In this document: one piece after another, positions 1 to 63,500 of the stretch
How the letters are laid out: every line of letters begins with the position of its first letter
Numbering within the stretch: position 1 is the first letter of the stretch
Made by a program: the position numbers and the translations under genes
From: Verrucomicrobiaceae bacterium
GTDB taxonomy: Bacteria > Verrucomicrobiota > Verrucomicrobiia > Verrucomicrobiales > Akkermansiaceae
Direction of reading: 5' to 3'
Assembly (NCBI GenBank): GCA_027486655.1
Contig: JAIXOR010000051.1
Location: 1 to 64,000 of the forward strand
Length of the DNA: 64,000 nt
The notes under the pieces: generated by a model
The model's database searches: none
What the model saw: only the letters and a program-made list of their open reading frames with translations
What the model was told of the DNA's origin: nothing

Positions 1-209
1 AGGAGGAGGTGGAAGTGGTTGGACATCACGCAGTAGGAAAGCACGCGGCAGCCGGAGAAGTTTTCCTGCATGCGCATGAAGGTGCGGAACTTCTCGCGTT
101 CGAGGCCCTTGAAGACGAAGCGCCGGTCCACCACGCGTGAAATGCAGTGGTAGATCGCCGGTTTGACCGTCGAATCCTTCCAAGGTGCCAACCAGCGCGC
201 CCGCCTCAT
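1..209 (-). CDS. REP-associated tyrosine transposase (RAYT, Y1_Tnp family), 5' part only
   Basis: The minus strand from the ATG at 209 reads 69 full codons to the window edge, so the 3' part is missing. Around residues 19-22 it has IYHC and at 60-69 CVMSNHFHLL. The second contains the His-Phe-His (HUH-type) metal-binding motif at residues 65-67, followed by the hydrophobic run typical of TnpA_REP proteins. RAYTs are single-copy, domesticated relatives of IS200/IS605 transposases that act on REP palindromes. The catalytic Tyr would lie beyond the edge and cannot be checked. The 129 bp between this start and the next gene contain a short inverted repeat, CCTACA (252-257) with TGTAGG (273-278), but I see no clear REP. 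Confidence 0.85.
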   Translation of the reverse strand, partial: MRRARWLAPWKDSTVKPAIYHCISRVVDRRFVFKGLEREKFRTFMRMQENFSGCRVLSYCVMSNHFHLL

Positions 210-3918: not shown

Positions 3919-3922
3919 GCGT

Positions 3923-5976: not shown

Positions 5977-7338
5977 TCAACCGAGATTCGGTTCCCAGCC
6001 CTTGCGATAGACCCGCTTGAGCATGGCCTTCACCTCGGGCAGGCCGCGGGCCTCCATGTTCTTCATGTCCCAGTCGATTTTTTTGCCGAGTCGCACCGAG
6101 AGGTTTCCGGCGAGCACCATTTCGGTGAGCGGGCCGGCGTGGTCCACGAAGTTGGAAATGGGCTTGGGCCCCTCGCCACGGATGGCGCGGCAGAGTTCCT
6201 GGGTGGGACCACCCTTGACGCGTTCGTAGACGGGTTTGATCGTTTTGGCCTTTTCGCGGAGGTTTTCCGGGTAAACGACGGGGGCAGTGCCGCAATAGGC
6301 GTCATTGACAAAGATGGTTCCTTCCGTGCCGACGAAGACCTGGCCGAACTCGTTGTTGAGTTTGAGGTCCGCGGGCAGGCCGGGAGGGCGGATGAACTCC
6401 TTGTCCGTGTTCGGGTCGTTCACACCGTCCTGCCAGATCACCTTGACCGGACCACGACCCTTCTTGGCGGGGAACTGATAGACGATGGTGGCGCGCTTGG
6501 GTGCCATGGTCTCATCGAACTCGGAAACCTTGCTCGATTCCACGATGAAGTCGCCTTTGAGATCGAGAGCCCAGAACGCGGAGTTGAAGCTGTGGCAACC
6601 GATGTCGCCGAGGGCTCCACAGCCGTAGTCCCAGAAGCCGCGCCATTTGAAGGGGTGGATGTCCGGATGGTAGGGGCGGTCGGTGGCGCAGGTGCCCTGC
6701 CAGACATCCCAGTTGAGGTGATCCGGAACGGGATTGGCGGGGAATTTCAGTCCCGGTCCCTGAGGCCAGATCGGGCGGTTGGTCCAGTAATAGACTTCCT
6801 TCACCTCACCGATGAGTCCGGCCTCGATCCACTCGCGGAGGACGCGGGTGCCCTGCATGGTGGCGCCCTGGTTTCCCATCACGGTGAGGACGCCTTTTTT
6901 GGCGGCCATTTCGGAAAGCACGCGGGTTTCCCACAGGGTGTTGCAGAGGGGTTTCTGGACCATGACCGGCTTGCCGCGGCGGATGGCCTCGAGGGCGATC
7001 GGGAAATGCATGTGGTCCGGAGTGGAAACCGTGACTACATCGATCTGATCGGCAACGGTCGCGAACATCTCGCGATAGTCGGAGAAAAACCTGGCTTCAG
7101 GGAACTTTCCGATCGCGCCACCGGCCCGTTGTTTGTCGACGTCGCAGAGGAAGGCGATGCGATTGCCGGCGGCGATTTCGGAGATGTCGCTGCCGCCTTT
7201 GCCGCCGCAGCCGATGGCGGCGACGTTGAGTTGCTGCGAAGGCTTCTCGGCACCCAGAAGGAGATTGGGCGCGAAGGCCGAGCCGGCGAGGGCGGCGGCG
7301 GACTGGATGAAACGGCGGCGCGACGGGTTTTGCATCAT
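5977..7338 (-). CDS. Gfo/Idh/MocA family oxidoreductase with Tat signal, QKP variant
   Basis: The protein has 453 residues and starts at the first of two adjacent ATGs (7338 or 7335). A Tat signal follows at once (SRRRFIQSAA). The nucleotide-binding site is AAIGCGGKGG. The EKP triplet is replaced by QKP (VMVQKPLCN), a substitution seen in a planctomycete/verrucomicrobial branch of the family. The segment WRGFWDYGCGALGDIGCH is the conserved substrate/metal face. It is the first of the four dehydrogenases in transcription order, 77 bp downstream of the fur-like gene on the same strand, so it may share that promoter. Confidence 0.93.
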   Translation of the reverse strand: MMQNPSRRRFIQSAAALAGSAFAPNLLLGAEKPSQQLNVAAIGCGGKGGSDISEIAAGNRIAFLCDVDKQRAGGAIGKFPEARFFSDYREMFATVADQIDVVTVSTPDHMHFPIALEAIRRGKPVMVQKPLCNTLWETRVLSEMAAKKGVLTVMGNQGATMQGTRVLREWIEAGLIGEVKEVYYWTNRPIWPQGPGLKFPANPVPDHLNWDVWQGTCATDRPYHPDIHPFKWRGFWDYGCGALGDIGCHSFNSAFWALDLKGDFIVESSKVSEFDETMAPKRATIVYQFPAKKGRGPVKVIWQDGVNDPNTDKEFIRPPGLPADLKLNNEFGQVFVGTEGTIFVNDAYCGTAPVVYPENLREKAKTIKPVYERVKGGPTQELCRAIRGEGPKPISNFVDHAGPLTEMVLAGNLSVRLGKKIDWDMKNMEARGLPEVKAMLKRVYRKGWEPNLG

Positions 7339-7415
7339 GCGGCGATTGTGGAATCGATTGTTCCCGCTGGCCAATCCGAAAATTTCCCGCCGGGTGAGGC
7401 GACTTGGCCGGGCTC

Positions 7416-7913
7416 TCAGCGTTTTTTGCGGAGGCGTTTCCCGCTGAGACGGGCGGCAATGAGGTTCGGGCAGCGGCCGTTTTTCCGGAGCTGTTCGCAG
7501 TTGGCCTCGATCTTCAAGGTTTGTCTCAGCGGTTTGAACCCGAGCCTGCGGGTGACACAGTCGTTGAGCAGGTCGATGTGCGCATCCTCGAATTCGAGCA
7601 CCTTGCCGCAATCGATGCAGACGAGGTGGTTGTGGGACGGCTTGTCGAGGAAGTTGGGGTCGTAGGTGGTCTGGTTGTCGCCAAGGTCGATCTCGCGGAG
7701 GAGATCCGCCTCCACGAGCAGGCCGAGCGTCCGATAGACGGTGGCGCGGGAGATGTCGGGATCGGTCCTTCTCACCCGGTCGAAGAGCTCTTCCGCGGTG
7801 AAATGCTCATCCTTGGAAAACACGGCGCGTGCGATCTTGTCCCGCTGGCCGGTGCGGCGCAGTCCCTTGCGCTCGATGAACGCGTCGAGCCGCTCCTTGA
7901 TGCCGGAATCCAT
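7416..7913 (-). CDS. Fur family transcriptional regulator
   Basis: A 165-residue metal- or peroxide-responsive repressor. The winged helix occupies about residues 10-85 with the recognition helix near SRATVYRTLGLL (55-66). The dimerisation half has the HNHLVCIDCGKV signature with C99 and C102. The second family Cys pair is not a close CXXC but C139 and C148 (C-x8-C), so structural zinc binding may differ. The basic C-terminal tail (GKRLRKKR) is longer than usual. It is divergent from rsgA with 87 bp between them, and upstream of the oxidoreductase operon on the same strand. Fur, Zur or PerR specificity cannot be decided from sequence. Confidence 0.9.
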   Translation of the reverse strand: MDSGIKERLDAFIERKGLRRTGQRDKIARAVFSKDEHFTAEELFDRVRRTDPDISRATVYRTLGLLVEADLLREIDLGDNQTTYDPNFLDKPSHNHLVCIDCGKVLEFEDAHIDLLNDCVTRRLGFKPLRQTLKIEANCEQLRKNGRCPNLIAARLSGKRLRKKR

Positions 7914-24476: not shown

Positions 24477-24505
24477 GCCCGCTCCGGGGGTGAGCCGGAG
24501 CGGGC
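24477..24505 (-). terminator. Terminator of the 2132-residue PATR gene
   Basis: GCCCGCTCCGG (24477-24487) and CCGGAGCGGGC (24495-24505) form a perfect 11-bp stem with a 7-base loop, about 30 bases after the stop. On the minus strand it is followed by TTCTTGCTTCC, a weak T tract. Confidence 0.8.
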
Positions 24506-24533
24506 CTGGGGTTACCATCCACAGTATGACCCA

Positions 24534-27500
24534 TTAGTTTTCCACGCCTTCGACGCGGAAGAAGCGGCTGCCCGTGCCCAGAGGAATGGTGGCGGTCCAG
24601 CGATCGTAGTTGGCCGGGACACCGGATTGGTCACCATCGGCAGCGGGGATGACGGAGCTCGCGGTCCAGGAACCAGCGCCGAGAGTGGTGCTCTCGAGCA
24701 GGGAGTAGCCGGCGTTATCCTCACGCCTCAGCCATTTGAGCACCAGGTTGCCACCGGTGGTGGTGGAGTCAACGAGGGTGCCGGTGGTGGCGGAGGGGTC
24801 GGTGCCGAAGAGGAACTCCTGGAGGTTGGTCAAACCATCGGAGTCCGGATCATCGGTGCGGCCGCGCTGGTTGGTATCGGCGATCTGGGTTTTCCAATCG
24901 TCGTAACCGGCAACGGCGATGGCGAGGGTGACGGTGCCGGCGGCTTCGTCGTAGGTCCAGAGTTGGCTGCCGACGGTCCGGGACCAGGTGTCTCCGGTGA
25001 CGGCCCAGGGGGTGCCATCGGCATCGACGACCTGGAAGGTGGATCCATAGGTCGCGGTGCCGGTGATTTCCTCGATCGACCAGGTTCCGGTGGTGAGGGT
25101 GGAGGCGGCGGCGACGTTGATGTGGAAATCGCCGTTAAAGGTCGCGTTGCCACTACCGGTGATCTTGGAGGGCACACCGGACGCCGGGATGGCGAAGGTG
25201 AGTCTGCCTGCATCGTGGAGTTCCATGGAGCCGCCGTTGACGATCACGTTGCCGGTGTTGGTGTTGGTTCCCTTGAGGACGAGCTTGCCATCGCCGGTCT
25301 TGGTGAGGTTGCTCGCACCGATCACGGGGCCGGAGATCAGGAGATCATCGGTGGCCGTTCCATCCTGCACGTTGAGCACCGCGTTTCCGACGAGGTTGAA
25401 GGGCGTGGCGATCTCGGCTCCGGTGGAGGAGGCGAAGAAGCTCATCGTGCCGCCCCAGTTGCGGAGTTGGGTGGAGGGATCGGAGTTTCCGGTGACCAGA
25501 CCGCCGGTCATCTGAAGAGTGGTGGCATATTGCTCGCGACCGAGCTTCAGGGTGCCGCCATTGATCACGATGGGGATCTGGTCGGTGCCGAGCGTGTGTG
25601 CCCCCGCGGTTTCCACGGTGCCGCCCGGGTTGATGGTGAGCGTATTCACCTGGCCGAAGGGGACGGTATACCAGCCACCTGCGGTGATGTAGAGCGTGCC
25701 TTCATTGACCGTGACTCCACCGCTGAAATTCTTGTTGGTGGAGAAGGTGAGCGTGCCGGCACCGGTCTTGGTGAATCCACCGTTGCCGGTGATGGGACCG
25801 GAATGGATGACGCCTGCGGTGTTGGTCACCTGGATCGTGCCGCCGCCTGCGCCGAGGGCGATCGCCTTCGAGGTGGTGATGGCGGAGGATCCGGAGAGGG
25901 CGAGAGCACCACCGGCGAGGGTGAGGGAACCCGAGCCGAGCTTGGCGGTATCGTCCACTTGAATCGAACCGCCGGTGACGGAGAGGTTGCCGGTGAGGGT
26001 GTTGCCCGCGTTGGTGAGGGTGAGGGCGCCGGTGCCGGACTTGGTCAGGGCACCGGATCCGGAAACCACGCCATCCAGGCTGAGGTTGCCATTCTCCAGC
26101 TTGAGAACGCTGGCGGAGAGCACGCTGAGCGAGCGATCCGTGGCGGCGGCCGTAGTGCCCGCATAGCCGAGCGTGCCGCCGTTGAGAACGATGGAGGAGC
26201 CACTGCCAAGCGCACTGCCGACACCCGAGTTGGCGATCGTGGCGGCATTGAGCGTGCCGAGGTTGATCGTGACGTCGCCGGTGAAGGTGTTGGTGTTGGA
26301 GATCGTGACGCTTCCATTTCCGCTCTTGAGAAGGGAGGAGGAACCGGTGATCGCGTTGGTGCCGGTGAGGGTGTAGTCCAGAGCATCCGAGTTCGTGAAT
26401 GCGACACTGAGCGGGTTCACATCGCCGGAGGAGAGCACCACATCGCCATCGAAGGCAGCGTCGTTGAACACGACGGCGGCTCCGGCGGAGAAGGTGACGG
26501 GATCGCCACCTCCATTGCGCCAGTTGTTCGTGAGCGTCCATTCGGCACCTTCGAAGCCGTCCCAGAAGAGGGCCGAGGTGCTGACGGTGAGTTGGAGTTC
26601 GCTTCCGTTGTCACTGAGCGCGTAGGTGAAGGGACCGCCGGGGTTGGTGCCGATGGTGAAGGCGGAGAGTCCGGTGCCTCCGATGGGACCACTGTGGGTG
26701 GCCAGCGTGTAGGTGCCAACCGCCAGCGGTGCGGTTCCGATGTCCACGGTGACCGAGCCGGCGGCACCGAGGGCTTCCAACTGGTTGGTGACAGCGACCT
26801 GGGTGACGTTGGGGGCGACCCTCAGGGTGCCGGTGCCGGCAAACGAGAGGCTGTCCACCGTGAGCATGTCTCCGGCAAGGGAGCTCGCTCCGATGCCACC
26901 GGCGACGGTGCCGCCGCTGGCGCTGACGACCACGCTGTTGTTGAGGACGCCATATCCGTCGAGGGTTCCACCGCTGTTGACGGTGACCGTGCCGGTTCCG
27001 GCGACGGTGCCCGCAGGATCATTGACCCGAAGGGTTCCTCCGTTGACGAAGGTTCCACCCCCATACGAGTTGTTGACGTTTGAAAGCGTGAGGATGCCGG
27101 TGCCCGACTTCGAGAACGACAGATTGTTTTCGTTGGTTCCCGAGCCACCGATGCGCATCGCCAGGGCCGAATCGCTGGCAGAGCTGAGGGTGAGGTTGGA
27201 CAGGGTGGTGGACATGCCGACGACCGAGCCTCCGGTGCCGTTGGAAGCCAGGGCGGACACCGTCTGGCTGACGCCGTCGAGCTTGAGGAAGGTGCCCGAG
27301 TTGAGGATGACGCCCGCGCCGGTGGGGAGGCGGTTGTCCGCGCCGCCGACGATGACCGAGCCGCCGCCGACGTAAACGCCGTTGCCGTAGGTGTTGGCAC
27401 CGGTGAGTCTGACGGATCCGCTGCCTTCCTTGCGAAGGGTGGTGGCGAAGGGGCCGCCGTTGTTGTTGCTGCCGCTTCCGGAGATGACGCCCTGGATGAC

Positions 27501-30500
27501 AAGGTCACCGGTGGCGGTATTGGATCCTGAAGTGGTGGCGAGGCGGTATCCGTAGCTATCCGCGAGAATGTTCACGGAGGAGTCGACCACCGAGCCGGAT
27601 GCGGCTGCGGCTGCGGAGAGATAGGTGCGGTTGACATCGCCACCACCGAGCGTGGCGGAACCGGTGCTGTAGGCACGGACGGTGGAGGGAGCGGTCTGGA
27701 GCGTCAGGGTATCACCGAAGCGGGAGGTGGTGCCGCCCTTGAGGTAGAGCCCGGTGGCATCGCCCACGCTGGTGCCGTTCACGGTGACCCCGCAACCGTA
27801 GCCGAAGCCGACGCTGGTGGAGTAGCCGAGCTGAAGGGTGGCTCCCGCGGCGACGGTGTGGAGTTTTGCGGTTCCGGAGGCGTTGTTGGTGATTTCGAGC
27901 GTTCCTGCATCCACGGCGGTGGTGCCGGTGTAGGTGCTCGCGCCGCCGAGGATCAGGGTGCCTGCGCCGAGTTTTCTCACACCGAGCGAGCCTGAGCCGG
28001 TGCCGGTGCTGTTGGCGATCACATCGCTGAAGGTGACGGCTCCGGTGGCATTGGCGGTGTTGAAGCCGAAGAAGGAGCCTGCCTGCAGGCCGTTGTTGGT
28101 GATGGTGGTCCGCAGGTTGTTGAGGAGCAGGTTGGCCTCGATGGTGCTGAACTCGCCGGTGCCGCCGATATTGACCGCCAGAGTGGCTCCGCTGGAAACG
28201 CGGAGGTTGGCCGGTGTCCAGCTGGCGGTGGTTCCGTTGTAGACGGATGCGGATTTCCCGAATTGGAGGACGCCCGCGCTGACGGTGGTGGTGCCGGTGT
28301 AGGTGTTGGTTCCGGAGAGGATCTGGTTGCCGGCTCCGGACTTGGCCAGGGTGACGACGGACGCGCCACCGTTCTGAATGTTTCCGGTGAAATTGCCGTT
28401 TCCACCGCCGCCGCCGAGGGTGAGGGTGGTATTGATGCTGTTGGTATCGACGGTGCCGTTGCCATTGAGTCCGTTGATCGTCTCGCTCTGGCTGGAGAGG
28501 CGGAACTCGGCCTGGGTGGCGGATGGGAAATCCGTGACAGTGACGCTGGTGGTATCCGGGATGTAGTTCGTGGCGGAGGCGGTGGCGACGCCGTTCTGAA
28601 GATTGCCTCCTGTTCCCGAAGGACTGATGGTGAGATTGCCGGTGAAGGTGTTCGCGTTGGTGAAGACCGTGCGTCCGGTGCCGGTGACGGTGAGGTTTCC
28701 GGTTCCGGAAATGCTGCTGTAGTCGGTGCGGTCCGCGGCGTTGGAATCGAGGATCAGGTTGCGGGCGAGGGTGATGCCGGTGAAACCATTGCTGGCTCCG
28801 GCTCCGGTGACATTCGAGCGGGTGCCGAGGGTGGCGGTGCCGGTGCCGTTGGCCGAGATGATGACGGGGCGGACGAAGTTGACGCGGTTGGTGTCGATGT
28901 AGAGGGCGGTATTCGCGGAACCGGTATTGCTGTCGCCGAGGGTGACGTTTCCGGCACCGAGAGCACCGGCGCTCTGGACCTGGATGGTGCCTTGGCTGAT
29001 GATCACGCCGCCGGTGAAGGTGTTGACTCCGTTCATCGTGAGGATGGACGAGCCGGACTTGAGGAGCGATCCGGTACCGGAGAGGAAGTTGCCGGCGCTG
29101 CCGGTGATCGTGAAATTGTTCGTCGCCGAGTTCACGACGATGGAACCTGGCTGGAGTTCACCGGCAAGGGTGATGTTGGTGGGAACGCCTGCGCTGTCGT
29201 CAAAGAGCACTGCGTCACCCCAGGCGAAGGTTTGGGCACCGGCGTTGCCCCAGTTGGCGGTGGTTTTGAGGTCCCAGACATTTCCCGGGCCGGCCCAGGT
29301 GAGGTTCTGGGTGCTGAAGGAAAGGGTGACCACGCCCGAGGTGTCGGTGACAACGGGGTTGGTGAATCCGCTCAGACCCTTGAGGTCGGTGGCGAGGCCA
29401 CCGGGGCTGGTGAGCGTGCCGGTGTAGGTGAAGAGGGTGACCGGGCTTTGTGCCGTGCTGGGGACCGAGCTGAAGACGACGGTCGGCTGCCCGGTGAGAT
29501 TGAGACTATTGAAGGTGATCCCACCCGGAGTGGTGGGATCCACAGCGAGGAACGATCCCGTGGCCGGGCTGACCGTTCCGCCGATGCTTCCTTCACCGCC
29601 GAGGGTGGCACCGCTGGCGACGCTGGTGGTGGTGGAGGCGATGCTGCCGCCTGCGGCGACGTTGAGGCGGCCTGCGTTGACTGCGAGCGTGCCGGTATGG
29701 GAGCTCACTCCGGAAAGCGTGGTGGTTCCGGTGCCGATCTTGGTGATGGCCGTGGAGCCGGAGAGCGGAGCGGTGACCGTTTGAGTGCCGGTGGTGCTGA
29801 GGGCGAAGGTCCCGGTGGCCGAGGAAAGGTTGATGTCGGAGGTTCCGGAAACGCTTCCGGTGAGTGTGACGGTGAAACCGTTTGCGTTCACCGTGGAGTT
29901 GGCATCAGCATAAACCGCGGGAGCCCAGGTGGTATTGGCCATGGCCCTGGCGGTTCCACCGGCAAGGTGGAATCCTTCAAGCGCGGCACTGGCGTTTGAG
30001 CCGTTCAGGTTGCCGTAGGTTTCGAGCACGCCGTTGGCGAGCAGGTTGACGCGACCGACCTTGGTATCCGCGCCGCCTGCATCGAACTGGATGAGGCCGG
30101 CCTGCCAGGTGGCGGTGCCGGTCGAGCCGCCCACGTTCATATCACCCGTGCCGTCGTGGGAGACGGTGGCGGTGCAAAGTCTGGTATCGAGGTTGCCACC
30201 GGAGAGGTTGTAGACGCTGCCGGCGCTGGCACCGTTGTCCCAGTGACCGACGCGGAAGTTGTTTCCAGCGGTGTTCACCGTGACATTGCCGCCGGTCTGG
30301 TCGACCCGGCCGGACTGGTTTGTGCCGGAGTCACCGAGGCCGATGTATTTGACCGAGGAGGTGCTGCCCGCTTCGATGGTGAGCTGGCTGTTGGCGCTGG
30401 TGCCGGTGAGCCAGATGCTGGCGAGAGTGGTGGTTCCGAATCCCGAAGCGAAGACCGCGTTTCCACCGCCTTGGAGGACGAAGTTTCCGGTATAGGACTG

Positions 30501-30932
30501 GGTGCCGCCGAGGGTGAGGGTGCCGGCTCCGGTTTTCGTAAGGTTGAAGGCGCCGCCGGCGATGGCGGAGTTGATGGTGGCGTTGGCGGCTGCGGTCACC
30601 GTGGAGGAGGCGCTCAGCGTGATGGTGCCGCCGCCGAGGGTGTAGCCCGCGCTGTTGAAGGTGATGCCGTTGGTGGTGACCGTGGAAACGGTGAGGGATT
30701 CCCCGGTGCCGCCGAAGATGGCGGTGTTGCCATTGGTCCAGACGATGCCCGCGTCCCAGTTGGCATCGGTGGTGTTCCAGGTGTTGAGCGGGCTGGTGTC
30801 CAGATAGGTTTGGTTTGCCGCGCTGGAGTCATTCTGGGAGGCCAGCAGTGTGACGGTGGCCACGATGGCGGAAGAGAGCGAACGCCCGCGGAAAAGGCCT
30901 GCGAAGAGGGGATTGGAACGAGTTGGTTTCAT
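24534..30932 (-). CDS. Giant PATR (autotransporter-associated beta-strand repeat) protein, 2132 aa
   Basis: The start is the ATG at 30932, opening a signal peptide beginning MKPTRSNPLFAGLF and a hydrophobic segment ending in ASQNDSSA. Nearly the whole protein consists of Gly/Thr/Ser/Asn-rich beta-helix repeats, with dozens of copies of the PATR pattern L-x-K-x-G-x-G-x-L-x-L-x-G-x-N-T-Y-x-G (for example TKTGAGTLTLGGTQSYTG). There is no C-terminal beta-barrel. Instead the last 124 residues hold AGYDDWKTQ, a D-x-D-x-D loop (DDPDSDGLTNLQEFLFGTDP) and an ending in RFFRVEGVEN, closely similar to the neighbouring giant. It is likely a surface fibre or adhesin. The 389 bp upstream hold its leader and the neighbour's terminator. 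Confidence 0.92.
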   Translation of the reverse strand: MKPTRSNPLFAGLFRGRSLSSAIVATVTLLASQNDSSAANQTYLDTSPLNTWNTTDANWDAGIVWTNGNTAIFGGTGESLTVSTVTTNGITFNSAGYTLGGGTITLSASSTVTAAANATINSAIAGGAFNLTKTGAGTLTLGGTQSYTGNFVLQGGGNAVFASGFGTTTLASIWLTGTSANSQLTIEAGSTSSVKYIGLGDSGTNQSGRVDQTGGNVTVNTAGNNFRVGHWDNGASAGSVYNLSGGNLDTRLCTATVSHDGTGDMNVGGSTGTATWQAGLIQFDAGGADTKVGRVNLLANGVLETYGNLNGSNASAALEGFHLAGGTARAMANTTWAPAVYADANSTVNANGFTVTLTGSVSGTSDINLSSATGTFALSTTGTQTVTAPLSGSTAITKIGTGTTTLSGVSSHTGTLAVNAGRLNVAAGGSIASTTTSVASGATLGGEGSIGGTVSPATGSFLAVDPTTPGGITFNSLNLTGQPTVVFSSVPSTAQSPVTLFTYTGTLTSPGGLATDLKGLSGFTNPVVTDTSGVVTLSFSTQNLTWAGPGNVWDLKTTANWGNAGAQTFAWGDAVLFDDSAGVPTNITLAGELQPGSIVVNSATNNFTITGSAGNFLSGTGSLLKSGSSILTMNGVNTFTGGVIISQGTIQVQSAGALGAGNVTLGDSNTGSANTALYIDTNRVNFVRPVIISANGTGTATLGTRSNVTGAGASNGFTGITLARNLILDSNAADRTDYSSISGTGNLTVTGTGRTVFTNANTFTGNLTISPSGTGGNLQNGVATASATNYIPDTTSVTVTDFPSATQAEFRLSSQSETINGLNGNGTVDTNSINTTLTLGGGGGNGNFTGNIQNGGASVVTLAKSGAGNQILSGTNTYTGTTTVSAGVLQFGKSASVYNGTTASWTPANLRVSSGATLAVNIGGTGEFSTIEANLLLNNLRTTITNNGLQAGSFFGFNTANATGAVTFSDVIANSTGTGSGSLGVRKLGAGTLILGGASTYTGTTAVDAGTLEITNNASGTAKLHTVAAGATLQLGYSTSVGFGYGCGVTVNGTSVGDATGLYLKGGTTSRFGDTLTLQTAPSTVRAYSTGSATLGGGDVNRTYLSAAAAASGSVVDSSVNILADSYGYRLATTSGSNTATGDLVIQGVISGSGSNNNGGPFATTLRKEGSGSVRLTGANTYGNGVYVGGGSVIVGGADNRLPTGAGVILNSGTFLKLDGVSQTVSALASNGTGGSVVGMSTTLSNLTLSSASDSALAMRIGGSGTNENNLSFSKSGTGILTLSNVNNSYGGGTFVNGGTLRVNDPAGTVAGTGTVTVNSGGTLDGYGVLNNSVVVSASGGTVAGGIGASSLAGDMLTVDSLSFAGTGTLRVAPNVTQVAVTNQLEALGAAGSVTVDIGTAPLAVGTYTLATHSGPIGGTGLSAFTIGTNPGGPFTYALSDNGSELQLTVSTSALFWDGFEGAEWTLTNNWRNGGGDPVTFSAGAAVVFNDAAFDGDVVLSSGDVNPLSVAFTNSDALDYTLTGTNAITGSSSLLKSGNGSVTISNTNTFTGDVTINLGTLNAATIANSGVGSALGSGSSIVLNGGTLGYAGTTAAATDRSLSVLSASVLKLENGNLSLDGVVSGSGALTKSGTGALTLTNAGNTLTGNLSVTGGSIQVDDTAKLGSGSLTLAGGALALSGSSAITTSKAIALGAGGGTIQVTNTAGVIHSGPITGNGGFTKTGAGTLTFSTNKNFSGGVTVNEGTLYITAGGWYTVPFGQVNTLTINPGGTVETAGAHTLGTDQIPIVINGGTLKLGREQYATTLQMTGGLVTGNSDPSTQLRNWGGTMSFFASSTGAEIATPFNLVGNAVLNVQDGTATDDLLISGPVIGASNLTKTGDGKLVLKGTNTNTGNVIVNGGSMELHDAGRLTFAIPASGVPSKITGSGNATFNGDFHINVAAASTLTTGTWSIEEITGTATYGSTFQVVDADGTPWAVTGDTWSRTVGSQLWTYDEAAGTVTLAIAVAGYDDWKTQIADTNQRGRTDDPDSDGLTNLQEFLFGTDPSATTGTLVDSTTTGGNLVLKWLRREDNAGYSLLESTTLGAGSWTASSVIPAADGDQSGVPANYDRWTATIPLGTGSRFFRVEGVEN

Positions 30933-31260
30933 GGGAATGGAGGTAATTGGGTTTTGAGAACTTGAAACGGGATGGAAAGCGGTGGTCGGAAACGGGCACA
31001 GGTCGACGCGGAGTGAGGCAACGAACACGCACCTGGAGCCGCAGCGGACGTCGTGAAATCCGACGATCCGGGATGCATCGCCCTGGAGATGAATCCCACG
31101 AAGGGATTCACCGGAACCTCTGTCAGATGCGAGGGGGCGAAGAACATGCGACTCACAAAAAAAGACGACAAGTCCATGAAGCGGAAGCCGTGCCGGGAAA
31201 AGGAGAATCCCCCGTGAATAAGTGTACAATTCCTTTGCGCAGCGAACAGGGCACTGGAAA
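30933..31260. other. Leader region of the 2132-residue PATR gene
   Basis: This noncoding stretch lies between the two PATR genes. It has AT-rich patches at about 31151-31165 (ACTCACAAAAAAAGACG) and 31214-31233 (GTGAATAAGTGTACAATTCC) that could contain a minus-strand promoter. I could not settle on -35/-10 boxes. Directly upstream of the start codon the transcript carries ACCTCC, an anti-Shine-Dalgarno-like rather than Shine-Dalgarno sequence. Confidence 0.4.
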
Positions 31261-31263
31261 CCC

Positions 31264-31299
31264 AAAAAGCCCGCCTCGGCCGAAACCGGGGCGGGCTTT
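31264..31299 (-). terminator. Terminator of the 1816-residue PATR gene
   Basis: The stem GCCCGCCTCGG (31269-31279) with CCGGGGCGGGC (31286-31296) has one G-T wobble and a 6-base loop. On the minus strand it is followed by TTTTT (complement of 31264-31268), a classic intrinsic terminator 23-58 bases after the stop. Confidence 0.88.
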
Positions 31300-31321
31300 G
31301 GAAGGCCGGGATCTCAGCAGA

Positions 31322-34300
31322 TCACTCCTCGACGCCTTGGACGCGGAAGAACTCGCTGCCCGAGCCGAGCGGAATGGTGGCCGTCCAGCGGTCGTAGTCG
31401 GTCGGCACGCCGGTCTGATCGTCGAGCGCGGGGATGACCGTGCTGGGCGTCCACGAGCCGGTGCCGAGGGTGCTGCTTTCGAGGAGGCTGTAGTTCGAGC
31501 CGTTTTCGCGTTCGAGCCACTTCAGGACGAGTCCGGATCCGGTGCTGGTCATGGAGACGAGCGAGCCGGTATTGGCGGAAGGATCGGTGCCGAAGAGGAA
31601 CTCCTGGAGGTTGCTGAAACCATCGCCATCGGGGTCATCGGTGCGAGCGCGCTGGTTGACATCGGCGATCTGGGTTTTCCAGCTGTCGTATCCGGCAACC
31701 TGGACTTCCAGGGTGACGGCGTTGGCGTCCGCGTAGCTGAGTTTGTAGCTATTCGGTCCGAGGGTAAGGATGGAGCCCTCCGGCAAGCCGGTGAACTGGC
31801 CACTGACACCGGTGGTGTAGGTGAGCAGGGTGAGCTTGGTGCCGCCTGGGAGAACCGCCGGACTTCCTGCGATATCGGTGAGGCTGAGGGAGCCGGCAAG
31901 TGTGGCGGTTCCGGTCACGTTGATCACATCGGCCGAGGGGGTTCCCGAGGAATCGATCTGGATCTGCACCGTCGAGCTCGCGGCGAGCGTGAGGGTGCCG
32001 GTGGCGAGCGACTCGATGGTGATGCCCGGGGCGAGGGTGGCGCCGTTTTCAAGGGTGAGGGCCCCGCTGATCGAGCCGGTGCCGCCGAGGGTGGCACCGG
32101 TCTTGACCAAGACATTTCCCGTGCCCGTGCCGGAGCCGGTGGTGTTGTTCACCAGCACGGTGCCAGCCTCCACGGTGGTGCCACCGTTGTAGGTATTGGC
32201 GGCGGCGAGCGCCATGGTTCCCGTTCCGAGCTTGCGGACTCCCCCTGCGGCACCGCCGATGGTGCCCTGGGCGGCGAGGATCATGTTGACCTGGAGGTCG
32301 GTGGCGGAGCTTGCGGTGACATCGGCGACGTTGAAGTTCTGGATGTCCTGGAGGTGGATACCGCCGGTTCCATTCATCACCGAGGGGCTGGTATTGCCTC
32401 CGCTGTTGGCGACGGTGACGGATGCCGCGCCGGTGGTGGTGTTGGCGAGGAGGGCGTCATAGTTGCTCAAACCGCGGTTGGAGGTCCAGGTCGCTCCATT
32501 GGAGAGGCTGACGTTTCCAAAACGGGCATCGTGAGAACCGGTGATGATCCAAGTGCCGCCGTTGACCGCGATGACTCGGGAGTCCGCCATCGCGGTGCCG
32601 TGGCCGCCGACGAAGATGTTGGTGGCATTGGTTTCCAGAACGGCTCCGGGATTGACGGTGAAGCCGGAGGCGGCACCGACGGATGCGTTGATGCGCAGAG
32701 CGCCGCCGTTGACGGTGAGGGCTCCGGAGAACGAGTTGGAGGCACCAAGCGTGAGTGTGCCGGTGCCGGCCTTGCGGAGTTCGCCGGTGCCGGTGAGGCC
32801 CGAGGTGAGGGTGACGTCGCCATTTCCACCGTTGCCATCGGTGCCGGTGGTTCCCGGCGTGCCGAGCATGGCGGTGGTGTCGATGGTGGACGTGCCGCTC
32901 ACCGAGATGGGCCGGGTGAACGAGAAGTCATTGGTCAGGGCGGTTCTGGCACCCAGAGCCGCCATGGCCGCGCTGCCGAAGGCCGCGTAATCGGCTTCTG
33001 CGGTGGTGGCGGCACCTTGTTTGATGCCGATGCCCTTGGTCCAGCCGCCGCTGGGGCCGACGCCGCCGCCTCCTTGTTGAACGCGGACATCGATGTCATA
33101 CCAGCCGGAGCTGTTGGCGGTGAACGACCCGGTGGCGGTGTTGTTCCAGACCGTATCATTGAGGATGGTGGTTCCGGCGATGGTGACGGAGCCGGCATCG
33201 TCGAAGCGTTTGGCAAAGGACCATTGGCCTGCGGTCAGATAGATCTTGCCCGAGTAGGCGTGGGTGGTGGTGCCCGGAACCACGTCGCCACCGGTGTTGT
33301 GCATGGTGCCGTAGTTCGTAGTGGTGATGTCGGTGCTGAGTGTTCCGCCCGTCATCACCGTGCCGGAGATGGGGGTGAAGAAGGAGCCCGAGTTATCGAA
33401 CGCGAGGGTGCCGCCCTGGAGAGCGACCGAGCCGGCGGTGGAGCCCGCCGCATCGATCTGGCCGATGGTGACGGTGCCGCCGGTGGCGACCTGGACGGCT
33501 CCGGTGAATCCGACTCCGGAGCGGCGCAGGGTGACGCTGGATCCGGTCTCGGCGCGCAGCGTGCCGGAACCTTGAAGGGCGCGATTGGGCAGTGCGGTGC
33601 CGGGAGCGAAGGTCCTGTCAAACGAGGCGGTTCCGGTGAGAGCGACGGTTCCGCCGTTGATGGTGAGAGCGCCCGGCGAGGTGATGGTGCCGGAGAGCGT
33701 CTGGGTGCCCGTGCCGACCTTGGTCAGATTCACGTGATCCGAGCCGTTGTTAACCCAGCTTCCGGTGAAGGTGCTGGAGACATTGTTGGTTCCCACGGTG
33801 AGGGTGGGTTTTCCGGCGACGGGCCAGAGTCTGCCGGCTCCGGAAAGACCGGCGATGGTTTCCGAGGTGAAGATCTGGAAGGTCGAACCGGTGCCGATGT
33901 CCACGTTGGAGGCATCGGGAACCGGATTGCCGCCGAAGGTCTGGAAGACCGTGTTGGTTCCGGAGATCGACACATTGCCCACAAAGCTGTTGTTGCCGCT
34001 CATGGTCACGCGCTGGCCGCCGGTGACGGTGATGTTTCCAGTGCCGGAGATCGCGCCACCGAAGTGGAGGCGATCGGTGGTTCCGGCAAGGATGGTGAGG
34101 TTGCGGGCGAGGGTGACCGGGCCGGTGAACTCGGTGTAGCTCGCCCCCGTGCCGGAGAAGCCGAGGGTGGCGGTGCCGGTGCCGTTGTTGGTGACGTTGA
34201 TGGCGTTGCCGAGCCCGCGGCCGTTGGTGAGGAGAAGGGCGACGTTTGCGGAGCCGGTGTTCGCATCACCGAGGGTGACGGCGCCGGTGCCGAGGCCGTT

Positions 34301-36772
34301 GTTCACACCGGTGACGACGATCGTTCCCTGGGAAATGATGGTGCCGCCCGTGTAGGTGTTGGGACCACTGATGGTGAGCGTGGAGGATCCGGATTTCAGC
34401 AGCGAAGTCGTGCCGGAGATCAGGTTTCCGGCGTTGCCGGTGAGGGTGAAGTTGTTGGTGTTCGAGTTGACGGTGATCGATGAGGGCTGGAGGTTGCCCG
34501 TGAGGGTAACCGCAGTGCTCGTGGCGGTGTCGTTGAAGACGACGGTGTCACCCCAGAAGAACGTGTCCGTGCTGACGGCGCCATCGTTCCAGACCCCGGT
34601 GGTGCCGGTGTCCCAAACGGTGCCACTGGTCCAGGTCTGGGTCTTGGTGTTGAGATCGAGTGTGACGGCATTGGCACCGACGGTGATCACCGGGGAGCGG
34701 TAGGAACTGCTGTTAGGAAGCACGAAGCTGCCGGGGCCGGAGATCGAATCGTAGGTGATGACCGTCAGCGGATCGAGAGTGGGCGGAAGCGGATTCGAGA
34801 AGGAAAGCGTGACGACGTCATTGACCGTGAGGCCGCCGGTGACGGAGAGCGCTCCCGGTTCAGTGGTGGGGTTGAAGGCGAGATTGAGCGTGCCAAGCGC
34901 GGTGAGGCCGCCGGTGACGGAGCCCTCGCCGCGGAGGCTGGTCGCTCCGTTCAGGGTGAGCGCGGAAGCGGTGGAACCGGTGAGGTTCAGGGTGCCGCCC
35001 TGCAGGGCGAAGGGTCCGGAGTGGCCCATGGTCCCGGTGAGGTTCAGGGTGCCGGTGCCGGTGTATTGGATTGGGACGGATCCGGTGAGGTTGGCCGAGA
35101 TCGTTTGGTTGGCTCCGTTGAGGCGAAGCATTCCGGTGAGATCGATCGAGGTGTCGATCAGAGTGAGGCTGGAGCTTCCGAGGATGGAACCCGAGTGGGT
35201 GACGAAGCTGTCGTTCAGGTCGAGCGTGGATCCGCTGTTGACCCTCCAGAGCGATGCCGAGGGGAAATCCGCGGTGGGTTGGAGCGTGCCGCCGCCGAAG
35301 TTGAGTTCCGAGGAAGAGAATCCGCCGATGCCTTTGGAGCCGATTCTGAGCGTGCCGCCGTTGAGGTTGTATTGGTCGGTGCCGGCGGTATCGCTGCGGG
35401 TGTCGAGACCGAGGCCGGCCGCGGTGACGGTGCCTCCCGTTTGGTTGAAGATGCCGATGCCGTCGACCCCGAGAATCAGGACACCCGGCGTTTCAAAGTT
35501 GGTGTTGCCCACGGCCGGGGTGCCATTGATCGAGAGCGATCCGCCTTCCATGTTGTAGACGGAGGTCTGGTTGGACCAGTGGCCGACACGGAAGTCATTG
35601 TTGACGACCACGGTGGTTCCGGCCTTCTGCGTGGTGGTGCCCGCGATTCCGGTGGCCTCGCCGAGGCTGGCGTTGTTGACGGTGACGTTGGCCCCGGAGT
35701 CGAGGGTGAGGATGGAATTGTTGACCGCAGTGCCGACCGCCAGGAAACCGGTGCCGGTGACGGTTCCGGTGTAGGTGGTGCCGGCCGTCGAGTTGACGGT
35801 GATGCTGCCCGCTCCGCTGATGGCGTTGTTATAGGCCGCGGCGGTGGCGTCGTTGCGGAAATCAAGGGTGGTTCCGTTGTTGACCGTGGCGTTGCCGAGG
35901 CTTCCGCCGCCGCCGAGACGGAGCGTGCCGCCTTGGAGATTCCAGGTCCCGGAATGGGTGTTGGCCGGGTTGGTGACGACAAGGAAGCCGCCATCCGTGC
36001 GATTGATGCTGCCCGCTCCGCTGATGACACCGGCGAGCGTGCTGGTGGCCGAGCCGTAGGTGCGGATGGTTCCACCGCCAGCGTCGATCTGGAGATTGCG
36101 GTTGGTGGTGCGGCTGAGGTTGGGGTCGATGATGCCGCCGCCGTTGAGGATGATTTTATTGGCGGCATTGCCGAGGGCTGCGTCGTTGGTCCAGTTGAGC
36201 AGGCCGCTGGTGATGGTGAGGTCGCCGGTGAAATCGCTGGTCGTGGAGCTGAGGGTGAAATGAGTGGCGCTGCCGCCACCGGTCGCGCTGAGGTCGCCGT
36301 TGACGGTCAGCGTGAGCGGTCCCACGCCGGTGATAGCGGAAGCGATGGTTTTGCCGTTGCCGGTGGTGTTGCCGGCGGCGGCGCTATGGAGCGTGATGCC
36401 GGTGGAAGGAGAGATGTTGATCGTGCCGCCCGTCACGCTCTGCGCGCCGGTGGCGGCGAAGCGGATCTGAGGTGTGGCGACGGTGCCTGCAAGGGTGATC
36501 GAGTAATCACCGACGTTCTGGAAACGGGCGATATTCCCATCCGCCCAGGCGGTGGTGGCCACGTCGCCATCAAGCGAGGTCGACCAATTGGTTCCGCTGT
36601 CCCAGGTTCCACCACCGGTTCCGAGGCCGGGAGTGATGCCGTTCGTGTCCCAATAAAGGGTTTGCGCTCCTGCTTGCGAGGCGAAGCCGGAAAGCGTGCA
36701 GACGATCGCAGAAGCGACGAGGCTCGATCGGATGGAGCGGGAGAAGAGCGGGTTGTTGAGTTTAGGTTTCAT
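31322..36772 (-). CDS. Giant PATR (autotransporter-associated beta-strand repeat) protein, 1816 aa
   Basis: This is a paralogue of the 2132-residue neighbour. The N terminus (MKPKLNNPLFSRSIRSSLVA) shares MKP, NPLF and a later SAIV with that protein, and the signal peptide ends near SQAGAQ. PATR units with the L-L-K-S-G-S-S-T-L-T-I-S-G pattern fill the molecule. The C-terminal 124 residues (AGYDSWKTQ, DDPDGDGFSNLQEFLFGTDP, ending EFFRVQGVEE) are nearly superimposable on the neighbour's. No beta-barrel is present, so export by its own translocator is unlikely. It is transcribed divergently from a GntR/LacI-type regulator that may control it. The pair looks like a tandem duplication. Confidence 0.92.
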   Translation of the reverse strand: MKPKLNNPLFSRSIRSSLVASAIVCTLSGFASQAGAQTLYWDTNGITPGLGTGGGTWDSGTNWSTSLDGDVATTAWADGNIARFQNVGDYSITLAGTVATPQIRFAATGAQSVTGGTINISPSTGITLHSAAAGNTTGNGKTIASAITGVGPLTLTVNGDLSATGGGSATHFTLSSTTSDFTGDLTITSGLLNWTNDAALGNAANKIILNGGGIIDPNLSRTTNRNLQIDAGGGTIRTYGSATSTLAGVISGAGSINRTDGGFLVVTNPANTHSGTWNLQGGTLRLGGGGSLGNATVNNGTTLDFRNDATAAAYNNAISGAGSITVNSTAGTTYTGTVTGTGFLAVGTAVNNSILTLDSGANVTVNNASLGEATGIAGTTTQKAGTTVVVNNDFRVGHWSNQTSVYNMEGGSLSINGTPAVGNTNFETPGVLILGVDGIGIFNQTGGTVTAAGLGLDTRSDTAGTDQYNLNGGTLRIGSKGIGGFSSSELNFGGGTLQPTADFPSASLWRVNSGSTLDLNDSFVTHSGSILGSSSLTLIDTSIDLTGMLRLNGANQTISANLTGSVPIQYTGTGTLNLTGTMGHSGPFALQGGTLNLTGSTASALTLNGATSLRGEGSVTGGLTALGTLNLAFNPTTEPGALSVTGGLTVNDVVTLSFSNPLPPTLDPLTVITYDSISGPGSFVLPNSSSYRSPVITVGANAVTLDLNTKTQTWTSGTVWDTGTTGVWNDGAVSTDTFFWGDTVVFNDTATSTAVTLTGNLQPSSITVNSNTNNFTLTGNAGNLISGTTSLLKSGSSTLTISGPNTYTGGTIISQGTIVVTGVNNGLGTGAVTLGDANTGSANVALLLTNGRGLGNAINVTNNGTGTATLGFSGTGASYTEFTGPVTLARNLTILAGTTDRLHFGGAISGTGNITVTGGQRVTMSGNNSFVGNVSISGTNTVFQTFGGNPVPDASNVDIGTGSTFQIFTSETIAGLSGAGRLWPVAGKPTLTVGTNNVSSTFTGSWVNNGSDHVNLTKVGTGTQTLSGTITSPGALTINGGTVALTGTASFDRTFAPGTALPNRALQGSGTLRAETGSSVTLRRSGVGFTGAVQVATGGTVTIGQIDAAGSTAGSVALQGGTLAFDNSGSFFTPISGTVMTGGTLSTDITTTNYGTMHNTGGDVVPGTTTHAYSGKIYLTAGQWSFAKRFDDAGSVTIAGTTILNDTVWNNTATGSFTANSSGWYDIDVRVQQGGGGVGPSGGWTKGIGIKQGAATTAEADYAAFGSAAMAALGARTALTNDFSFTRPISVSGTSTIDTTAMLGTPGTTGTDGNGGNGDVTLTSGLTGTGELRKAGTGTLTLGASNSFSGALTVNGGALRINASVGAASGFTVNPGAVLETNATNIFVGGHGTAMADSRVIAVNGGTWIITGSHDARFGNVSLSNGATWTSNRGLSNYDALLANTTTGAASVTVANSGGNTSPSVMNGTGGIHLQDIQNFNVADVTASSATDLQVNMILAAQGTIGGAAGGVRKLGTGTMALAAANTYNGGTTVEAGTVLVNNTTGSGTGTGNVLVKTGATLGGTGSISGALTLENGATLAPGITIESLATGTLTLAASSTVQIQIDSSGTPSADVINVTGTATLAGSLSLTDIAGSPAVLPGGTKLTLLTYTTGVSGQFTGLPEGSILTLGPNSYKLSYADANAVTLEVQVAGYDSWKTQIADVNQRARTDDPDGDGFSNLQEFLFGTDPSANTGSLVSMTSTGSGLVLKWLERENGSNYSLLESSTLGTGSWTPSTVIPALDDQTGVPTDYDRWTATIPLGSGSEFFRVQGVEE

Positions 36773-59794: not shown

Positions 59795-60097
59795 ATGTCG
59801 GAACTCACGTATCCTCAAAGGAATTCGTTTGACAATCGCCCCGCATCCGCTTGTCTGGACTTGTTATCAGAAACCACCACCAATCACGTGGATAGCGACC
59901 TGCTGCATACCGAAAAGATCCTCGCGGACCGGAAAGTCTTCTTTCTCGACCTCAAACGCAACTCCCGCGGCATGGTCGTCAAAATCACCGAAGACGTCGG
60001 TGGCAACCGCGACACCATCATGGTCCCCGCCGAAATCCTCGGCGACTTCATCGCCGCCCTCAGCGACATCAAGCTGACCGCCGACGAACAGGACTGA
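59795..60097 (+). CDS. PUR family (PurA-like) nucleic-acid-binding protein
   Basis: A 100-residue protein if it starts at the ATG at 59795. The conserved part is the C-terminal 65 residues: ILADRKVFFLDLKRNSRGMV, then VKITEDVGGNRDTIMVPAEI and LGDFIAALSDI, the single PUR repeat of bacterial single-stranded DNA/RNA-binding proteins. A GTG at 59888 would give a 69-residue protein covering just that part, and the region between the two starts holds a TTGACA hexamer (59829-59834), so the shorter form deserves attention. Confidence 0.82.
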   Translation: MSELTYPQRNSFDNRPASACLDLLSETTTNHVDSDLLHTEKILADRKVFFLDLKRNSRGMVVKITEDVGGNRDTIMVPAEILGDFIAALSDIKLTADEQD

Positions 60098-60193
60098 TCC
60101 CTCTCCAAGCCCACAAAGGAACCCGCCACCCTCACTGGCGCATCCCCGGACACTTCGTCCCCCTTTCCCCACCCGACCCCCGCTGCGCCCAGT

Positions 60194-60230
60194 CGTACGG
60201 ATCCTTGATGCGGCCGCATCATTAATCCGT
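60194..60230. repeat. 37-bp dyad repeat, copy 1
   Basis: It begins CGTACGGATCC and ends TAATCCGT, with a 16-base perfect palindrome TGATGCGGCCGCATCA in the centre (60207-60222) and outer arms ACGGAT/ATCCGT. The tetramer GTAG follows at its 3' end. Confidence 0.85.
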
Positions 60231-60392
60231 AGCGCTGCCCGTTCTCCGCAGTCCGATTACGGCGAGGAACCGGTGGTTTTCCAATAGCGATCCATCCGTC
60301 CATCGACGTGAATCCATCTCCTTTCACGAACCCAGAACACCCGTCCCACCTCGATTTCCACCCCCCCATTCACACCAACAAGCGTTGCAGCA

Positions 60393-60429
60393 CGTACGGA
60401 TCCCTGATGCGGCCGCATCCATAATCCGT
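60393..60429. repeat. 37-bp dyad repeat, copy 2
   Basis: It matches copy 1 at 34 of 37 positions in the same orientation. The central palindrome GATGCGGCCGCATC is intact and the outer arms are kept; the differences lie outside the palindrome core. The conserved symmetry suggests selection for a structure or protein site. Confidence 0.85.
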
Positions 60430-60451
60430 CGTTGTGGGTTTTTGGAGGATG

Positions 60452-60487
60452 AAAAAACCCCCGGTCCGCGCGGGGCGGAGCGGGGGT
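60452..60487 (-). terminator. Terminator of the lamin-tail/Ig-like secreted protein gene
   Basis: ACCCCCG (60457-60463) pairs with CGGGGGT (60481-60487), with further GC pairing inside. On the minus strand six T residues follow (complement of 60452-60457), 25-60 bases after the stop. Confidence 0.88.
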
Positions 60488-60511
60488 GGAGGAATGAGGC
60501 AGTGGCTTGGA

Positions 60512-63500
60512 TCAGGGGGTGATGACCACGAGGCGGACGAAGAGCGGGCCGGTTCCGGTGGGCAGGGTGTAGGTGAGGGCTCCGGTGTTGTTGACGAGGC
60601 CGGGGGCATCGGAAGCGACGTTTGTCCAGGTGCTGAGGTTGCCCGAGGTCTGGAGATAGAACTTCGTTCCGTAGTCCGCAGGGAGAAGGTTGCCTCCATT
60701 GGTCCAGGTAACGGCACCGGCCACGACACCCGGATTGGCGGTGAAGCCAGCGGCGGCGTTCATGAAGTATTCGATGCCGTTCTCCACGCCGTCGTTGTCG
60801 AAGTCGAGGTCTCCAGTCTGTCCACCGGCATTGGTGGTGGCCCAGGTCGAATAACCGGCGATCACGTTGGTGGCACCGGGAGTCGGGGTTTGAGCAACAT
60901 AAAGGGCGGTATCAAACGCGGCGCCGCCATCCGGAAGCCTTGCGATCGACAGGGTATCGGAAACACCGGAGGCACCCTCATTGATCTGTGGTTTGCCGGG
61001 GGTGAGCGCGTTGATGAGGGCCGTGTCGTCGGCATCGGCGGTGTCATAGACCACAGCATCGACCAAGGTGCCGTTGGTGGTGGTGACCGGGGTATTCAAG
61101 GGGAACTCGGAAGGATTTCCGAGGTAGAGGGCGACGGCATCGGCACCATTCTGAACTCCATCGGTGGTGAAGGCCTCCAGATCGCTGGCGACGTTGGCGC
61201 TGCCGATGACGAAGTAGCCATTTGCCGGAATCGTCTGACCGCTGAGATCGATGGTGGAGTATGCAAGATCGTTACTGCCATTGTAGAGCACGATCACCAC
61301 GCCATCGAGGGATACGGCCGAGCCGGAGGTGTTGTAGAGTTCGATGAACTCGGCAGTGTCCGTTCCAGCCTGGTCGGCGTCCACCTCATTGATGACCACC
61401 GGCAAGTTGATGTCGGTAAGTTCATCCTGCACGGTGATCACTTGAGAGGCCGGGGTATAACTGATGGCGGAAACCGAGACGGTGACCGGTTGGTCGCCAT
61501 CGAGATAGGGATCATTGACAGCGGTGATCGGGAACTGGGCGCTGCTTTGTCCGGCGAGGATGGTGACCAAGGTACCGGCGGTGGCTTCGCTCGCGTCGTT
61601 GACATCCACGTTGATGAAAAGATCCGCCGCAACCGGTCCGGCGACGGAGACCGTGGCCGTGGCGCTGCCTCCATTCTCGGAGAACGAAGCGGGGCTGATG
61701 GACAAGGCGAGGTTTTTGGGAGGATTGACGGCCCGCAGATACCAGGCGTCGGAGAAGGAAGCCGAGTTTACTTCAGCGACGGTCTTGGTTGCCCAGGTTC
61801 CGGTGAAGTTGAGGATGGAAGTTCCGGTCACGAAATCGAAGCCCTGGATCGAATCGCTGATGCGATAGAAGCTGAGGTCCACTCCTTGGACAGCGGAGAA
61901 GGAAATGGCGTCCACCACTTCGTCCTGGGTGAAACCGGTCCCGGTGTAGAGCACCACGCTATCGTCGCCATTGAAGTCGGTGGCACTGACATTCACCGAA
62001 TCCGTGGCGAGGTCGAAGTTGTTTGCGGCATAGGTCGGATTGGTGGGGCCAGGCTCCGCGACGAGGAAGTATCCGTTGGCGGGAATGGTTCCGGTGAGGG
62101 CGGTCACGCGGGTTGTGGTGCTGGTGCCGGACTTCCAACCTTCGTTGTCCGAAGGGGCGGTATCGCTCCAGCAGGCGAGGCGGTATCCGGACAGATTGAT
62201 CGGTGATCCGGTCAGGTTCTTGAGCTCGATGTAGCGGTCCGTGGAAGTGGTTCCTTCGTGGTACTGGCTGATGACCACGGATGGAGCGGCGCGAGTGCTG
62301 AAGTTCCAGGTCGAGTTCCCGGTGACAGCGAGTGTTCCATTGTTGGCTGCATCCTTGAAGGTGCCTGCGGCGATTTCCACGTAATAGCCGGTGCCGTAGG
62401 CAAGGATGGTGGAAGGATTGATGGTGGCCGAGGATCCCGAGACGGCGACCTGGGCACCGGGGACGGAGATGGTTTCCACCACGCTGTCATCGGAGACTTT
62501 TTTGATCACGATTGAACCCGAAACCGCGGTGATCGGCTCGTTGTAGGAGACCACGAGGTTGGAAGCAGGGAAGGCCGTGCTGCTATCGTCCGCAGGAGAA
62601 GTGGAGGAGATGGCCGGCGGCGTCGTATCGAGCGAGGCCGTGGTAAAGGTCCACGTCGAAGCGTCCGAGATGCCTGCGAAGTTGTTGTTCGCGAGGTCTT
62701 TGAAAGCACCCGAAGCGATGTTCACATAATATCCGGTCAGTCCCGCAAGGCTGGAAGGAAGCGTGATGGTGGCCGTGGAACCGGCAACCGCCACGGCGGC
62801 ATCCGTCACCGGGATGGTGAAGACCGTGGAATTGTCCGAGACCAGCTTGAGGGTGATGTCACCAGTGCCCTTGGCGATGGTTTCACTGAACTGGGCGGAG
62901 AGGGTGGTGAGAGTGCTAACACCGGTCGCGTTGTTCAGGGGACTCAGCGTGCTGACAGTGGGTGCCGTCGTGTCTCCGCTGTAGGTGGCGGCTACCGAAA
63001 GATTGTCGAGGCCAAGTCCCTGGGAGTTTCCTCCCGTGGTGTTGAAGTTCCAACGGAGATAGAACGAGGTGGTGGTAGGAATCGAAAGGCCGGTGAGGGA
63101 GAAGGATTTGTTCACCACCGTGCCGCCATTGAAGGTGTAAGTAATCGCTCCCGTCGCAAAGGCACCCGAGTCTCCGGCCGTCTGCGCGGTCCAAGTCGTG
63201 CCATCGGTCGAGATGAAAAAGTTCACCTGGGCGGCCGCGGTATTCACCCGGTAGCGCTCGATATCGAACGAGATCGCAAGGTCGGTGATCGTCCCTCCGG
63301 TGTTGTTCGTGTATTGTGCCATCAAGGAACTCGGCGACGCGTAACTGCCCGAGGTCATGAAACCTACTGCGCGATCCGAAGTGGTGGCTGAATTTCCCCA
63401 GTTGTAACGACTTCCTGAGGTGGGAGTCCCACCATTTGCCGCTTGAAGCGTGGCAGTGAAATTCCCTGCAGCCGTCCATGTCGGCGCAGTGGCTCCCGCA

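Follow-up and report, generated by a model that had tools for sequence, protein, structure and literature searches.

A dispersed family of REP-like palindromes in Verrucomicrobiota and its probable PaaX-like partner protein

Starting from a palindromic pair in 64 kb of Verrucomicrobiaceae DNA (the window, which is the first 64 kb of the 216-kb contig C45), we delineated a dispersed family of REP-like palindromes whose partner is probably a PaaX-like protein and not a RAYT. There is a strong case that the palindrome family belongs to this protein.

The pair in the window consists of two near-identical 37-bp dyads that agree in 34 of 37 bases (92%) and start 199 bp apart, with a core palindrome and outer arms ACGGAT/ATCCGT, all as described in the first-pass annotation. 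Both copies lie, as was also stated there, in a single intergenic region, between two convergent genes (Table 1). The pattern ACGGATNNNTGATGCGGCCGCATCNNTNATCCGT, searched with up to three mismatches, matched the window four times (two places on both strands) and gave no match in 100 dinucleotide shuffles of it.

Table 1 Features of the window that are relevant to the palindromic pair.
Feature	Position	Strand	Remarks
Truncated RAYT-type (Y1_Tnp) gene	3..164	-	Left window edge; no element there
Small gene, 100 aa	59795..60097	+	Left of the elements, directed toward them; ORF; gene caller start 59861
Palindromic element copy 1	60194..60230	.	Arms A/A; core GATGCGGCCGCATC at 60207-60220
Palindromic element copy 2	60393..60429	.	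Arms A/A; core at 60406-60419
Terminator-like stem with T run, apart from the palindromes	60459..60475	-	Consensus scan only
Large gene, 1088 aa	60512..63778	-	Right of the elements, directed toward them; ORF; gene caller start 63640

Transcript hairpins had been suggested for this pair, and both copies indeed fold into hairpins when either strand is read as RNA (-18.9 to -23.9 kcal/mol, z -2.5 to -4.4). However, pair covariation among 15 paralogues was no greater than in shuffles: two-sided changes were found at 9 of 19 pairs, a count reached by 96 of 500 shuffles because the arm types swap independently. An RNA hairpin kept by covariation among these 15 copies was therefore rejected. Also rejected were an intrinsic terminator, as the palindromes have no T tail and the terminator-like stem is distinct from them, an Rfam family (two matches with E ≤1 in 59900-60700, both far below the gathering score) and, by eye, an integron attC site, which carries GTTAGC/GCTAAC in the order opposite to that of the palindromes. 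Elsewhere in the window, long degenerate GGTG/CCGG-rich internal repeats extend over about 24500-36250 and probably represent large repeat-containing proteins. Four oxidoreductase-like genes of the GFO/IDH type were recognized by eye from the ORF translations, all on the minus strand (339-1721, 2569-3969, 4522-5886 and 5977-7611).

The copies in the source genome (G000; draft assembly, 5.3 Mb, 87 contigs) are many, not just the two in the window. Exact matches to the 14-bp core number 15 (backwards control: 0), each with the layout of the window's 37-bp copies, and a covariance model built from these 15 yielded five more clear copies, on contigs C71 (two), C25, C79 and C64. The resulting family size of at least 20 copies is a lower bound because only 150 of the 5896 first-look candidates were scored; a weak match at C34:7562 (E 0.009) is excluded from it. 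The arms fall into two discrete types, A (CGTACGGAT) and B (TGTTAGCAGAT), combined as A/A in 11, as B/B in five and as mixed A/B mosaics in four of the 20 clear copies. Copying and recombination fit these discrete types and mosaics better than does gradual evolution of sites. Neighbouring copies are spaced by 130-1661 bp; each is palindromic in itself, so that orientation is ambiguous for REPIN-type inverted doublets.

None of the 20 copies is centred within a predicted gene. Compared with random stretches of the same genome, the 16 distinct gaps that hold elements include six convergent ones (expected 1.0, P 4e-4), nine tandem ones and a single divergent one (expected 5.3, P 0.018). Here, the gene contexts come from a simple gene caller. 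It truncated the PaaX-like gene, and the 16 gaps include the two that belong to this gene's unit. The elements resemble REPs in being extragenic palindromes of 20-40 bp with many dispersed copies in one genome. They carry neither GTAG nor CGTC as an end tag, the consensus being CCGTACGG or TGCTAACAG; within 20 bp of the core, GTAG occurs in one and CGTC in four of the 20 copies. The GTAG noticed earlier beside copy 1 is present, but it differs from the GTACGG of the family and has no counterpart among the other copies. The C38 palindrome pair sits in duplicated sequence. An 8-bp tandem repeat, GGCACCCC (L050:4917-4988), adjoins a palindrome in duplicated sequence, with array lengths that differ between the duplicates.

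On contig C2 of the source genome, two elements 834 bp apart bracket one ORF of 260 amino acids, and both overlap a gene end, each providing a gene's stop codon. The encoded protein matches PaaX_M (“central Cas2-like domain”; E 1.4e-20, 73.6 bits against a cut-off of 24) and PaaX_C (E 4.7e-5, 24.1 bits against a cut-off of 22), both above the curated cut-offs, and hence belongs to the PaaX protein family. The equivalog model for PaaX proper, the phenylacetate repressor (NCBIfam TIGR02277), scored 55.5 bits, below its cut-off of 264.55. A structure model of a relative (39 sequences, pLDDT 84) had its best fold matches in the PDB with E. coli PaaX (8a39), followed by the uncharacterised 3kfw and by 3l09, a regulator that PMC9493321 (in excerpt) names as a PaaX. 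Cas2 structures came next, over the middle of the model only and with E >0.1. Judged from this fold, the N-terminus is of the helix-turn-helix type.

The arrangement is found in five other species besides G000, with the PaaX-like gene between paired elements spaced by 834 bp (G000, G109, G105, G048), 833 bp (G057) or 823 bp (G016). The stop codon lies inside the downstream palindrome in G000, G057, G105, G048, G109, G054 and G055 (by eye). A PaaX-like remnant was found neither between the window's two copies nor in four other clusters of the source genome (best E 0.43). The upstream neighbours of the unit are common to G000, G057, G105 and G109, which argues against a freely mobile unit. When neighbours were compared for 36 of 51 PaaX-like loci and that of G000, a flanking homologue was common to 12 of the 666 pairs among these 37 loci. 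Within close groups, the bracketed unit looks inherited in place. RAYTs are usually inherited in place as well.

To relate elements and protein across the genus, we surveyed 73 genomes including G000, using Infernal's stricter filters for the element scan. The element was present in nine genomes, six of them with pairs at 823-834 bp, and a PaaX-like protein in 18. All seven genomes with a close protein (that of G000 itself or 54–57% identical; G000, G057, G105, G048, G109, G016 and G023) had the element, compared with 2 of the 66 others (Fisher 2e-8). Because the model came from G000, we repeated the test with this genome left out, obtaining 6 of 6 against 2 of 66 (P 2e-7). The two genomes with the element in which no close protein was detected, G025 (57% complete) and G050 (97%), speak against the link. 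A wider test, of any PaaX-like gene against three palindrome types, found a type present in 13 of 18 genomes with such a gene and in 6 of 55 without (P 2e-6), where the two types searched as patterns had to reach at least five copies to count as present. The remaining five genomes with the gene (G001, G026, G047, G055 and G100) have palindromes of their own outside the search. When the core and its T/A neighbours were searched in 99 genomes with at most one mismatch, more than one copy was found only in G000 (15), G048 (10), G057 (5) and G077 (2). Viral contigs yielded 18 pattern matches, none of them a relative.

A scan of genome contigs identified 51 PaaX-like loci, in records labelled as Verrucomicrobiota groups, Kiritimatiellota or just bacterium. 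Inspection of the flanks of 22 of 23 PaaX-like genes showed that most of these genes have palindromes with a different sequence on one or both sides (21 of the 23 matches entered the protein alignment, with L119, which has an internal stop, and the fragment L133 omitted). Among 48 of the 51 loci (L183-L185 were omitted as partial), a palindrome score of at least 10 was reached upstream in 24, downstream in 28 and on both sides in 19 cases. Under this strict score, 14 loci had a palindrome on a single side and 15 on neither, which counts against the link. Among 373 other genes in G000 and G017, examined in identical windows, three reached the score upstream, four downstream and none on both sides; in an earlier control, in windows that were mostly coding, it was reached in 1 of 716. 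At all 19 two-sided loci, the two palindromes are alike in their centres, with at least 12 of 14 bp identical. Furthermore, palindrome distance tracks protein distance (Mantel r 0.44, 0 of 5000 permutations), as tested on those 33 of the 48 loci where at least one side reached a palindrome score of 10.

Two of these other palindromes also form dispersed sets. The first, GTCCGATCGGAC (pattern BGTCCGATCGGACV), occurs 34 times in G006, 30 times in G054, 13 times in G029 and six times in G036, each of which has a PaaX-like gene flanked by it, while 64 of the 73 genomes have no or one copy (backwards control: four places in three genomes). Seven copies are present in G019, where one of them directly adjoins a broken PaaX-like remnant (L269, G019:C358, about 1440-1701), a C-terminal part with an internal stop. 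Against the link stand 25 copies in G057 and five in G105, whose two PaaX-like genes carry other palindromes, as well as 12 copies in G059 (71% complete) and nine in G038 (76%), where no gene was detected. The second, TTGTCNNRGCYNNGACAA (TTGTC..RGCY..GACAA), occurs 24 times each in G015 and G017, both with a PaaX-like gene, and once in G037 (backwards control: two places in two genomes); its six copies in G052, a genome that is 95% complete and in which the gene was not found, run counter to the link. In the one complete genome examined, Kiritimatiellota B12222, one pattern searched with no mismatch gave three exact copies, two of them bracketing the gene, a result that counts against a dispersed family with a PaaX-like partner.

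The PaaX-like protein likely binds the palindrome, by analogy within its protein family and considering the shared divergence. We infer this also because the E. coli PaaX site, the palindrome TGATTC-N27-GAATCA, is likewise long, spanning 39 bp (PMC9493321, in excerpt). The protein, probably as a dimer, would recognise the palindrome, 34-40 bp long, in its double-stranded form, and recognition at its own gene would make this gene self-regulated. Solo copies, judged from the discrete arm types and mosaics, likely arose by copying; as non-autonomous elements they would have spread as a REP-like passenger family. Such a passenger family is our first choice, with a regulon or a chromosome-organising set as its rivals. 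Tentatively, we propose a RAYT-independent REP system, in which a PaaX/Cas2-like protein recognises palindromes at the ends of its own gene, with copies spread through Verrucomicrobiota and Kiritimatiellota and the sequences diverging together.

A conventional regulon, with the PaaX-like protein as repressor and the dispersed palindromes as operators controlling the adjoining genes, is rather unlikely. It has a precedent, since the canonical PaaX acts as a repressor and has a palindromic site (PMC9493321, in excerpt), and it draws on the comparison of G015 with G017. Of 20 G015 regions, 12 share a neighbouring gene with a palindrome-bearing G017 region (both neighbours in eight cases, one in four), or 12–13 if L196, whose diverged palindrome is kept in G017, is included and L188/L222 are regarded as doubtful. 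These counterparts appear to behave as functional sites would, counter to the copying view. Double sites 51-75 bp apart exist in both genomes. Divergent gaps make up 6 of 18 distinct gaps in G015 (P 0.26) and 8 of 18 in G017 (P 0.049), where 4.4 are expected, so that gap types are about as in the background, slightly more divergent in G017. On the other hand, gaps in the source genome are biased toward convergent and away from divergent genes, a palindrome lies over the stop codon at the 3′ end of the PaaX-like gene itself, and the discrete arm types and mosaics likewise speak against this reading. Ten neighbours of G015 sites, hand-picked from 38 predicted, are unrelated and mostly of housekeeping types.

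Of four G015 sites compared with G017, one is kept as a diverged palindrome, two are lost along with their flank, which is replaced or deleted as well, and one is unmatched; a clean empty site or insertion was seen at none of the four. In the outer arms of 12 orthologous sites, with two nearly identical pairs omitted from the count, we found 10 two-sided, pair-keeping changes compared with 5.1 by permutation (P 0.0016). Without L188/L222, whose orientation is doubtful, 11 sites gave 9 compared with 4.7 (P 0.008), and the seven sites orthologous by both flanks gave 5 compared with 3.0 (P 0.085). This is suggestive of joint arm change at orthologous sites; copy replacement or hairpin-templated correction would give the same result. 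The intergenic regions L192/L221 and L203/L206 are 96–99% identical between G015 and G017, compared with 38–75% for the other ten, a similarity that suggests recent exchange of these regions between the two genomes.

That the scattered palindromes shape or mark the chromosome, like MatP/matS or SlmA, is improbable. The 5–34 copies in most carrier genomes searched, their intergenic placement, neighbours without a functional theme in the sample and some compensated site evolution would suit such a system, but the protein is patchy in its distribution (18 of 73 genomes), the palindromes are lineage-specific and sites lie at both ends of the protein's own gene.

Mobilisation of REP/REPIN elements by a RAYT, as first proposed for the pair, is very improbable and largely refuted: the RAYT reported at the left edge is present as a truncated Y1_Tnp gene, one of 15 Y1_Tnp matches in the genome, and the size and placement of the elements fit REPs (PMC3733652, in excerpt), but no element turned up at any of the 15 loci (E ≤10; flanking sequence covered to about 1.5 kb at most, in several cases truncated at a contig end) and only one copy has GTAG, so that we rejected a RAYT as partner. 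The first-pass annotation had considered that two copies only, with none near the RAYT, would argue against a REP family; copies are many, yet none is near a RAYT, and the idea of a REP-like family thus stands for dispersal, copy number and extragenic position but not for the RAYT link. A second dispersed repeat, TTGTCTGTCCCTATGT, occurs at 10 places in the source genome with at most one mismatch (backwards control: 0), located at window 260-275, C38:11272-11623, C11:20225-20332, C45:123183 and on C13, C37 and C54. It adjoins the truncated RAYT gene at the left window edge and the C38 palindrome pair, and is possibly that RAYT's own repeat. Several Y1_Tnp matches extend almost to a contig end, stopping only a few bases short (C45:3, C79:3, C65:3, C3:3, C38:61962 and C80:33564), which looks as though repeated RAYT sequence had interrupted the assembly.

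If the proposed partnership is true, a protein unrelated to HUH transposases can serve as the partner of dispersed extragenic palindromes, and the middle domain of this protein resembles Cas2, which acts in CRISPR adaptation. Among the matches listed in open PMC text, which leaves subscription papers and preprints outside, there was no description of a PaaX-like partner of dispersed palindromes. REP-type palindromes are usually explained by RAYT transposases, with CGTC REPs and others lacking a known partner (PMC3733652, in excerpt). A non-RAYT partner with co-changing palindromes would offer a testable machine for RAYT-less families, and finding the gene bracketed by the repeat would be a search route to further partners.

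The system resembles the REP/REPIN-RAYT systems (GTAG REPs, “REPtrons”) in its short, lineage-specific extragenic palindromes with scattered solo copies and a bracketed gene. It differs from them in that the partner is PaaX-like and not a tyrosine (HUH) transposase, that GTAG is not a consensus and that copies number tens at most. Typical REP families have more copies than the 20 found here. The elements of the source genome often lie between convergent genes, as has been reported for REPs (PMC3733652, in excerpt). With CGTC REPs, which in the same excerpt “apparently lack a dedicated transposase”, they have in common REP-like palindromes with no RAYT partner; here, however, CGTC stands at the arm end in only 4 of 20 copies, without forming a consensus, and the element brackets a gene. 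E. coli PaaX shares the protein family, the fold and a long palindromic site, whereas the protein described here scores far under the equivalog cut-off and has many dispersed sites, one of them over the 3′ end of its own gene. The MatP/matS, SlmA and Noc systems each have a single DNA-binding protein, whose palindromic sites are scattered. The PaaX-like protein is likewise of a DNA-binding type and accompanied by scattered palindromes, but it belongs to another protein family and is patchily distributed, its palindromes change with the protein lineage and its gene is bracketed by them.
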